Positions 11,274 through 14,832 of a DNA stretch of 64,000 nt are shown one piece after another. The stretch's first letter is position 1. Each line of letters begins with the position of its first letter. The notes beneath the pieces are model-generated. The model searched no databases. It was not told where the DNA came from and saw only the letters and a list, made by a program, of their open reading frames with translations. The stretch is from Pirellulales bacterium (GTDB lineage Bacteria; Planctomycetota; Planctomycetia; Pirellulales; PALSA-1355). Made by a program: the position numbers and the translations under genes. The stretch is from the NCBI GenBank assembly GCA_022844125.1, contig JALHMI010000002.1, forward strand, positions 310,001 through 374,000, written 5' to 3'.

Positions 11274-11477
11274 GCTCGCTGCGGTCCGCTTAAGTCCATT
11301 GCCAGCAGCGACTTGCTGTCATGGCCCAGGAACTTGCGCAGGCGCGGCCTGCCCTCATTGCTAGAATACTCCACTGGTTTGACGAACGTCCGCAAGGGTT
11401 GCGGATGCACCGCGACGCTCAAGCGGCCTCGTGGAATTCGCCAGCCAAGGTGAGGCACCACCGTGTGCCGCGCTCCC

Positions 11478-12266
11478 ATGGATACTCCGCTAGCCGGCGG
11501 TGCTCAACAGGTTTCAAGCAGTGCGTTCCCACTCGTGGTAGACACGCCTTCCCAATCTTCCCGACCTCGGTACGAGTCTCTGCGCGCCGAAGGTCCGGCC
11601 GTTGTCCCTTCGCTACTGCTGTGCGATTTTGGGCACTTAGCCGACGAGGTGAAGCGGCTGGAGGACGCAGGGGTCCGAGCCCTGCATCTCGACGTGATGG
11701 ACGGGATCTTTGTCCCGAACATCACCTACGGACTGCCGATTGTCGAAGCCGTTCGCCGATCGACCGAGTTACCCATTGAAACGCACCTGATGATTGCCGA
11801 ACCTGCGAAATACCTGCGGCAATTTCGCGAGGCCGGTGCCGATGCGATGACATTCCATTTTGAAGCGGCCCCTGACGCCCGACCGCTGCTCGAGCAGATC
11901 CGCGCGATGGGTGGCGAGGCCGGCTTGGCCATCAATCCCGCGACTCCTGTCGCGGCAATTGAACCAGTCCTGGACGCCTGCGACATTCTGCTAGTGATGA
12001 GCGTCTCTCCAGGTTTCGGCGGACAAAGCTTCGAGCCGTTGGCACTTGAGAAACTTTCGCGACTGCGGGATTTGACTACAAGCGAACAGATTCTGGAGGT
12101 CGATGGCGGTGTGAATGCCAAGACAATCGCTTCGTGCGTTGCCGCAGGCGCGCACTCGCTAATCGTGGGGTCCGCGATCTTCGGACATTCCAATTACTCT
12201 CAGGCGCTCGACGCCCTGGCCGTGGCCATGCGGGTCAGGCCGAACTCGCAGCGCACAACAAGATAA
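11478..12266 (+). CDS. rpe: Ribulose-phosphate 3-epimerase
   Basis: A 262-aa TIM-barrel enzyme of the pentose phosphate and Calvin pathways. Clear family motifs: VPSLLLCDFGHLADEV, the metal-binding HLDVMDGIFVPNITYG, THLMI, MSVSPGFGGQSF (phosphate grip) and VDGGV. The N-terminal about 45 residues before VPSLL are extra compared with the usual 220-230 aa enzyme. ATG 11478 is chosen over a GTG five codons earlier. It is preceded by a 204-bp gap and followed after 26 bp by the phosphatase-fold gene. Confidence 0.93.
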   Translation: MDTPLAGGAQQVSSSAFPLVVDTPSQSSRPRYESLRAEGPAVVPSLLLCDFGHLADEVKRLEDAGVRALHLDVMDGIFVPNITYGLPIVEAVRRSTELPIETHLMIAEPAKYLRQFREAGADAMTFHFEAAPDARPLLEQIRAMGGEAGLAINPATPVAAIEPVLDACDILLVMSVSPGFGGQSFEPLALEKLSRLRDLTTSEQILEVDGGVNAKTIASCVAAGAHSLIVGSAIFGHSNYSQALDALAVAMRVRPNSQRTTR

Positions 12267-12292: not shown

Positions 12293-12877
12293 ATGGTTCA
12301 GATCGTACTGATTCGCCCCGCCGCCACCGACTACGACGAACAGGGGCGGATCGTCGGCGGGCTCGACATTCCGCTTAGCGAACAAGGCGCCCGTGACGTT
12401 GAGCGGATGATCGAGGAACTTCGTCCATTGGGAATTACCGCGATCTACACCGGCCCCTGCAAAAGTGCCTGCCAGACGGCCGAAGGTCTCGCCGACGCAC
12501 TGGATGTGAAGCTGAAGAAGCTCGACGACTTGCGAAATATCGATCATGGGCTGTGGGAAGGCATGCTGATCGAGGACGTCAAACGAAAGCAACCCAAAGT
12601 CTATCGCCAATGGCAGGAGCAGCCGGACATCATTTGCCCTCCCGAGGGTGAAATGTTAGGCGAGGCTCGGGAGCGAGTTCAGGGGGTTCTGGCAAAGCTA
12701 CTCAAAAAGAACACCGTAGGGACTGTGGCCTTGGTGATTCCGGACCCTCTCGCGGGGGTCGTCCAGTGCGAGTTGCTTCGACAGGACATCGGGGTATTCT
12801 GGAAGACGCGTTCCGCCTGCGGAAAATGGGAAGTTATTAACGGCCAGTCGCAAGACGTGGCTGGAGTACATCACTAG
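12293..12877 (+). CDS. Histidine-phosphatase-fold protein with catalytic residues lost
   Basis: A 194-aa protein with the overall order of phosphoglycerate-mutase-like histidine phosphatases: an N-terminal strand, IPLSEQGARD, a QTAEGLA helix, GLWEG and a C-terminal strand. Yet the defining residues are changed. The RHG motif reads R8-P9-A10, so the phospho-accepting His is Pro9; the second His (usually in VSHG) is Asp151 in VIPDP; the second conserved Arg before the QTAE helix is Ser58; and the acidic residue of LREID is Asn82 or Asn-shifted (LRNIDHG). Only Arg8 remains. It is therefore unlikely to be a phosphatase and could bind a ligand or partner. It lies 26 bp after rpe and 108 bp before accD. 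Confidence 0.85.
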   Translation: MVQIVLIRPAATDYDEQGRIVGGLDIPLSEQGARDVERMIEELRPLGITAIYTGPCKSACQTAEGLADALDVKLKKLDDLRNIDHGLWEGMLIEDVKRKQPKVYRQWQEQPDIICPPEGEMLGEARERVQGVLAKLLKKNTVGTVALVIPDPLAGVVQCELLRQDIGVFWKTRSACGKWEVINGQSQDVAGVHH

Positions 12878-12985: not shown

Positions 12986-13846
12986 ATGTCGACCAGTCCG
13001 ATCGAAACCAACCTGCAAGTCCCTGGCACCCGGCGACCCAAGCGAGGCGTGCCCGAGGGTCTCTGGCAGCGCTGTCCAGGTTGTCAGCAGACAATTTTCC
13101 GCAAGCAGGCCGAGCGTGCCCTGGGTGTTTGCCCGGAGTGCGATTACCACTGGTATGTCTCGGCCCGCGACCGAATCGCCCAAGTGCTCGACGAGGGCAC
13201 CTTTGAAGAGTGGGACGCCGGATTGATGCCGGCCGATCCGCTCGGATTCGTCGACAAGAGCGCTTACGCCGAAAAGCTCAAGAACGAGCAATCACGAACC
13301 GGACTGAATGAAGCTGCGGTGGTCGGTACAGGTATGATCCGCGCCCGCCGTGTGGCGTTTGGCGTCACCGATTCGGCGTTCATCATGGGCAGCATGGGAT
13401 CGGTCGTCGGTGAAAAGCTGACCCGACTGACCGAGCGGGCCACTGCCGATCGCTTGCCGCTGATCATCATCAGTGCTTCGGGCGGCGGCGCCCGGATGCA
13501 CGAGGGGATTCTCTCTCTGATGCAGATGGCAAAGGTTTCTGCGGCGCTTGCCCGTTATGACGCGGCCGGTGGTCTGTTTATCTCGGTTCTTACCAACCCG
13601 ACCATGGGTGGTGTGGCGGCCAGCTTCGCGTCGCTGGGCGACATCATCTTTGCCGAGCCCAAGGCCCTGATCGGATTTGCCGGTCCGCGCACGATTCAAG
13701 CCACGATCAGAATCGAACTTCCCAAGGGTTTTCAGACCAGCGAGTTCCTGCTCGAACACGGTTACATCGACCGGATCGTGCGCCGCTGCGATCTGAAAAG
13801 CGAGATCGCCCGGTCGATCGACTACTGCGGCAAGATGCCACGCTAG
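12986..13846 (+). CDS. accD: Acetyl-CoA carboxylase carboxyltransferase subunit beta
   Basis: A 286-aa protein of fatty-acid synthesis that transfers the carboxyl group from biotin to acetyl-CoA together with AccA. The zinc ribbon is complete (Cys30, Cys33, Cys49, Cys52), followed by the crotonase-like carboxyltransferase core with [37 protein letters not shown] and [16 protein letters not shown], all typical. ATG 12986 gives the usual length; the reading frame runs further up without good starts. accA is not nearby, which is common outside a few lineages. Confidence 0.95.
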
Positions 13847-13971: not shown

Positions 13972-14832
13972 ATGGGGCTGTTCGATAAGCTCTTCAAGGG
14001 CTCGAAAACGAATCTCAAGACACGTTTTGAGCTGTTACGCGAAGCGATTTCGGGCACGATGTCCACGTTTCACATGGCGCGCGATCGCCACACCAAGCAG
14101 ATCGTGGGCCTCAAGATTCTCGATCGCGAAAAGACCGCGCAACTGGAATCTCGCTTTGTGGGCGTCGACAAACCGAAGGAAGGCGAGATCGCCGTTACAT
14201 TTGAGCATCCGCACATCGTCAAGACGCTCGAGCACGGCATCTCGACAGATAATCAGCAGTTCCTGGTCATGGAATTCCTCGATGGTCCGGGCCTCAATTC
14301 GTTGATCGTGGGTCGCAGCGAGAAGCTCGAAGGCCGACGGATCGAGTTACTCCGCCAGGCGGCCGAGGCTCTCGCCACGGTCCATCGCGCGGGCTACATT
14401 CATCGTGACGTTTGCCCACGAAATTTCGTCGCCAATAAAGACTGCGCGTCGCTGAAGCTGATCGATTTCGGCCTCACTGTCCCGAACAATCCCCCATTCA
14501 CCTCGCCCGGCAACCGCACCGGCACCCCGAATTACATGGCGCCAGAGGTCGTGCGGCGCCGGCCGACGAGCACAAAGCTCGATGTCTTCGCCTTTGGGGT
14601 GACGGCCTTCGAGCTGTGCGCGTTCGAACTCCCGTGGCCGCGTGGGCGGGGTGAAGCAGCAATGACTCACGGCTCGATGGAGCCGGCCGAGTTGCGGAAG
14701 TTCTGTCCGAAGATCGATCCGCGGCTCGAAAAGGTGATTTATGACTGTATCGACGCCGACCCGGACAAACGACCCTCGCTCGATGATTTCTTGAAGGCGA
14801 TCAAAGGCTTGAAGCACGAATTTACCGGCTGA
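13972..14832 (+). CDS. Serine/threonine protein kinase, cytoplasmic, degenerate P-loop
   Basis: A 286-aa Hanks-type kinase without transmembrane segment or sensor domain. Lys48 (VGLKILD), the catalytic loop HRDVCPRNF (Asp146, Asn151), Asp165 of DFG and the APE motif (MAPEV) are present, so catalysis is plausible. The glycine-rich loop is eroded: the segment around residues 24-38 has a single Gly where GxGxxG is expected. The activation loop includes GNRTGTPNYMAPE with Thr residues suitable for phosphorylation. The protein ends right after the kinase domain. The target is unknown; the neighbours accD and an LRR-like lipoprotein give no firm hint. Confidence 0.9.
   Translation: MGLFDKLFKGSKTNLKTRFELLREAISGTMSTFHMARDRHTKQIVGLKILDREKTAQLESRFVGVDKPKEGEIAVTFEHPHIVKTLEHGISTDNQQFLVMEFLDGPGLNSLIVGRSEKLEGRRIELLRQAAEALATVHRAGYIHRDVCPRNFVANKDCASLKLIDFGLTVPNNPPFTSPGNRTGTPNYMAPEVVRRRPTSTKLDVFAFGVTAFELCAFELPWPRGRGEAAMTHGSMEPAELRKFCPKIDPRLEKVIYDCIDADPDKRPSLDDFLKAIKGLKHEFTG

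Follow-up and report, generated by a model that had tools for sequence, protein, structure and literature searches.

A gene at 12293–12877 on the forward strand of the window, the whole 64,000-nucleotide stretch of Pirellulales DNA that was analysed, encodes a protein that by homology and predicted fold belongs to the histidine phosphatase (HP) superfamily and that, by the defining catalytic residues in its sequence, is not an active member of it. The label X is used here for this gene and for its orthologues linked to rpe and/or accD. With a probability of roughly 0.7, X is a dead HP that was inactivated once and is retained as a binding or regulatory protein without catalysis; that it is non-catalytic as a phosphatase is, from the residues present, nearly certain.

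A histidine phosphatase fold with replaced catalytic residues

The frame of X starts with an ATG and runs uninterrupted to give a product of 194 aa. The protein matches Pfam His_Phos_1 (PF00300) with an E-value of 7.6e-34 and a score of 117.5 bits against a family cut-off of 21.7, placing it by homology in branch 1 of the HP superfamily, and scores about 116 (116.4) bits, below the cut-off of 350, against the NCBIfam PspA equivalog NF045917. The best relative with a solved structure is PspA from Hydrogenobacter thermophilus (4ij5/4ij6; E about 5e-28, 31–34% identity). An AlphaFold2 model of X (pLDDT 88.4, pTM 0.85) predicts the HP fold, and its best structural matches are PspA 4ij6 (Z 25.4, 2.2 A, 189 residues) and HFP, the riboflavin-pathway phosphatase of Aquifex (PDB 9mmh, Z 25.1), which also resembles X in its insert regions (PMC12051542). 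Both the HP fold and the intact frame between rpe and accD had been proposed in the preliminary description of this DNA, and both were borne out.

Residues are numbered as in PspA, which is colinear with X and HFP. In the alignment to PspA, the catalytic set R8-H9-R58-E82-H151 reads R8-P9-S58-N82-D151 in the window copy, and X lacks the nucleophilic His, the second pocket His, the second pocket Arg (Arg58) and the acid/base Glu82 of an active HP. The former RHG motif (codons 8–12; 12314–12328, forward strand) reads R-P-A-A-T, with the family form being R-P-G-x-T and Ala10 a local variant of the R-P-G consensus, and codon 58 (12464–12466, forward) encodes Ser where the second catalytic Arg would be, at a position that is variable in the family. 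Codons 81–120 (12533–12652, forward), among the most conserved regions of the X orthologues, contain Asn82 instead of the acid/base Glu, the segment GLWEG and a conserved cap (PKVYRQWQEQP..CPPEGE), a cap insert like that described for HFP (PMC12051542). The second-His motif (codons 149–154; 12737–12754, forward) reads I-P-D-P-L-A, with V-P-E-P-L-A as the family form, and Asp151 of the window copy is a minority form relative to the consensus E151. The phosphate pocket of HFP is composed of R8, H9, R58, H149, N15 and E82 and, unlike that of X, is complete (PMC12051542); N15 of HFP is Asp15 in the window copy. The preliminary description had every catalytic position replaced, which holds for H9, R58, E82 and H151, including the specific changes to Pro, Ser and Asp and an altered acid/base position (Asn82), and fails for Arg8, which is retained.

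Conservation of the replacements

A strong orthologue of X was present in 53 of the 57 genomes of the same family and order, and 30 aligned orthologues from these genomes have the identical replacement pattern. Amongst 81 Pirellulales sequences (the best 80 of 257 relatives from a scan of named genomes, plus the window copy), there is no His at position 9 (0/81) or at position 151 (0/81) and the substituted residues are nearly fixed, with Pro (76/81) or Thr (5/81) at position 9, Asn at position 82 (80/81), and Glu or Asp at position 151 (79/81) followed by an invariant Pro152 (81/81), whereas position 58 is variable and is Arg in a single sequence (1/81). As the same replacements occur in the cultured Blastopirellula marina DSM 3645 (L225) and Botrimarina colliarenosi Pla108 (L242), both part of this set, the pattern is no metagenome artefact. 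Pairwise dN/dS is about 0.03–0.17 for the closer pairs with measurable dS, dS being high or saturated in many pairs, and these values indicate purifying selection.

The catalytic residues of X are gone, their loss is conserved and the sequence is under purifying selection, the pattern expected of a pseudoenzyme. It had been proposed from the window alone that X is a maintained pseudoenzyme, a proposal that close homologues with an intact RHG and second His would have overturned; no such homologue occurs in the 81 sequences, and the common replacements, the purifying selection and the single old group of inactivated copies described below all lend the proposal support.

The five sequences with Thr9 (L185, L230, L231, L237 and L248), one of which also has Ser151 (L230), possibly represent a sub-lineage whose pocket differs. 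One record under the name Candidatus Nealsonbacteria (L211) possesses a Pirellulales-type X and is probably mislabelled or part of a mixed metagenome bin.

The rpe and accD neighbourhood

Upstream of X is rpe, encoding ribulose-phosphate 3-epimerase (11463–12266, forward; start codon as listed mechanically), and downstream is accD, encoding the beta subunit of the acetyl-CoA carboxylase carboxyltransferase (12986–13846, forward; start taken at an ATG within a longer mechanical ORF). Of 80 named loci, 76 have rpe upstream of X and 71 have accD downstream of it; contig ends account for part of the remainder. The gap between rpe and X is 26 nt in the window and has a median of 13 nt in the orthologous loci, where the two genes sometimes overlap, and these short or overlapping junctions suggest that rpe, X and accD are cotranscribed. 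The gene order rpe-X-accD is shared by the families f21, f99 and f101 of the Planctomycetia and several distant families of the Planctomycetota. Further downstream in the window is a Ser/Thr protein kinase with recognizable HRD and DFG catalytic motifs (13972–14832, forward), a frequent accD neighbour. It lies 3' of accD in the window and in many relatives, among them genomes of family f100 that lack X.

At 60 accD loci from other members of the phylum, most of those showing rpe have it directly upstream of accD with no X between, and a sensitive profile search for a hidden X beside accD in these loci, some of which end soon after accD, recovered one more copy (L138). X is absent from family f100 of the Planctomycetia and from the genomes G044, G054 and G335, all of which keep accD, and in the X-less genomes that were checked rpe and accD occupy different contigs or are separated by 2 Mb. 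Conversely, X occurs with rpe alone (L174, L205, L242 and G019) or with accD alone (L179, L182 and L216). As accD persists without X and X is found with a single neighbour in some genomes, neither enzyme strictly requires X.

In the single-contig genome G019 (L067 and L168), accD is located far from the rpe-X pair and X stays beside rpe. Two draft genomes from family f10 (G029 and G051, estimated 97% and 93% complete) yielded neither a match to accD or rpe nor a strong X, which may reflect an assembly gap in the drafts or the loss of the whole cluster. A plasmid search for X returned only distant HPs with <60% identity.

Dead and active copies within the phylum

Gene order separates dead from active HP copies without exception in the sample compared, 42 copies beside rpe and/or accD and 37 HP paralogues located elsewhere in genomes of the same phylum. 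Both histidines are missing from all 42 linked copies and Arg58 from all but one, such that none has intact catalysis, while all 37 unlinked paralogues possess RH at positions 8–9, Arg58 and an acid at position 82, with His151 in each paralogue that covers the position (L267 ends at a contig end). Arg8 is missing from three of the linked members (L009, L030 and L032).

In a maximum-likelihood tree built with the catalytic columns removed, the linked copies are separated from the unlinked ones by a single branch (bootstrap 100, SH-aLRT 96). Because the linked copies remain one group with those columns excluded, a single ancient inactivation is the simplest reading of the sequences, with catalysis most simply lost once, early in the Planctomycetota, and X then retained for a non-catalytic task. 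Outside the Planctomycetia the linked copies mostly possess Glu82 (one has Gly), with other residues at positions 9 and 151, and the retention of Glu82 suggests that both histidines and Arg58 were lost first and that E82N followed later in the Planctomycetia. On a tree of AccD and Rpe, the genomes with X are not a single clade and the distribution of X requires 9 gains or losses compared to about 31 with shuffled labels, row L168 being scored as X-less though its genome has X elsewhere. This history fits an early origin with repeated loss, and transfer of the cassette is possible. The fastest-evolving member seen is a linked copy (L259, genome G297) with a branch length of 1.98 and changed pocket residues.

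Constraint on the former pocket and alternative explanations

Conservation is concentrated in the former active site. The fraction of Pirellulales orthologues sharing the majority residue is 0.85 at residues 6–12 (the former RHG), 0.75 at 14–24, 0.79 at 81–120 and 0.80 at 147–154, compared to 0.54–0.59 in the rest of the protein. The HFP inserts at 14–24 and 85–120 are thought to determine substrate specificity (PMC12051542). That the pocket is the most constrained part of X although its catalytic residues are gone points to a retained binding role, with the caveat that pocket conservation is expected in active HPs too and shows constraint, not the reason for it. A binding or regulatory role for X is consistent with this concentration, and re-use of the pocket for binding is probable; the remodelled pocket and the 81–120 cap would bind either a ligand or the surface of a protein.

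The same constraint could be read as a neofunctionalised enzyme that performs a new, non-phosphohistidine chemistry, for example with N82, E151, R8, R19, C115 and E120, since the replacements are nearly fixed, not random, and share the pocket loops with other polar residues that are strongly conserved. This is improbable: no known alternative motif was seen in X, Arg8 has been lost from the three linked members noted above, and the distant linked copies differ at positions 9 and 151 and mostly keep E82, from which it follows that there is no single new catalytic set family-wide.

PspA, the nearest solved relative of X, forms an active PspA/PspB heterodimer in Hydrogenobacter, and X could by analogy be an inactive heterodimer partner that tunes an active HP paralogue. 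Such a partnership is quite unlikely given that X is the sole HP match in five Pirellulales genomes estimated to be 92–99% complete (G020, G024, G036, G045 and G053), in a single-sequence search that may miss distant HPs, and that the one other HP match in the window genome is a distant active-looking paralogue located elsewhere, with 30% identity.

The very short or overlapping rpe-X junctions, and the absence of X from checked genomes in which rpe and accD are separated, would also be expected if X acted in cis as a spacer or translational-coupling element of the rpe-accD transcript and its protein had little role, but purifying selection at the amino-acid level, the conserved pocket and the retention of X with a single neighbour in some genomes make this very improbable. 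Though the window copy has lost the usual residue at four of its five catalytic positions, a decaying gene or a sequencing or assembly error can be dismissed for practical purposes, as the same replacements are common to 81 sequences, cultured species included, with low dN/dS and intact frames, which rule out sequencing error, local decay and a frameshift.

A probable retained pseudophosphatase and its possible partners

For a dead HP retained for binding or regulation, the conserved neighbours offer candidate partners, and X may serve the metabolism to which rpe and accD belong, as an accessory or regulatory subunit. Based on sequence distances at 63 loci, with kinship ignored and only the genes of the locus included, X has a partial correlation of 0.61 with AccD compared to 0.35 with Rpe (Rpe-AccD, 0.18), and under the same limits the X-AccD correlation exceeded X-Rpe in 99.6% of half-samples. 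This coupling is suggestive only; it would make AccD the likelier partner, with acetyl-CoA carboxylase a tentative candidate as the target of X and Rpe an unlikely one. A more specific proposal, in which the acetyl-CoA carboxylase of the Planctomycetota has an accessory or regulatory subunit in X, a dead phosphoserine-phosphatase-like protein with a remodelled pocket that grips AccD or senses a metabolite, is doubtful. Because X is sometimes found with rpe alone or accD alone and accD persists without X, we commit only to X being a binding or regulatory protein that is not a catalyst.

Amongst characterized proteins, PspA is like X in its colinear numbering, the same cap region, the DHG-W-G motif and overall fold (Z 25), and differs in possessing R8-H9-R58-E82 and the second His, of which X keeps only R8. 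The PhoE/YhfR and CobC-type phosphatases (1h2e and 6e4b; 18–21% identity) share the branch-1 HP fold but, unlike X, are active. A precedent for a pseudophosphatase within the HP superfamily is Cf60 of Dictyostelium, which has an HP-like structure and no phosphatase activity and is a regulatory component of a complex (PMC7926622), although, unlike X, it is a secreted, eukaryotic protein of branch 2 and is unrelated in context. No published description of the X family was found in a search limited to open-licence papers, which is weak evidence, and the main text of an essential-gene study of Planctopirus limnophila makes no mention of phosphatases or accD (PMC10632474). A bacterial, syntenic and phylum-spanning family of pseudophosphatases in the HP superfamily appears to be new.

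Bacterial pseudophosphatases are little described, and for this family a label of 'histidine phosphatase' would mislead. X extends across much of the Planctomycetia and scattered lineages of the phylum, in association with genes for fatty-acid synthesis and for the pentose-phosphate pathway, and the family provides a clean system for asking why dead enzymes persist.
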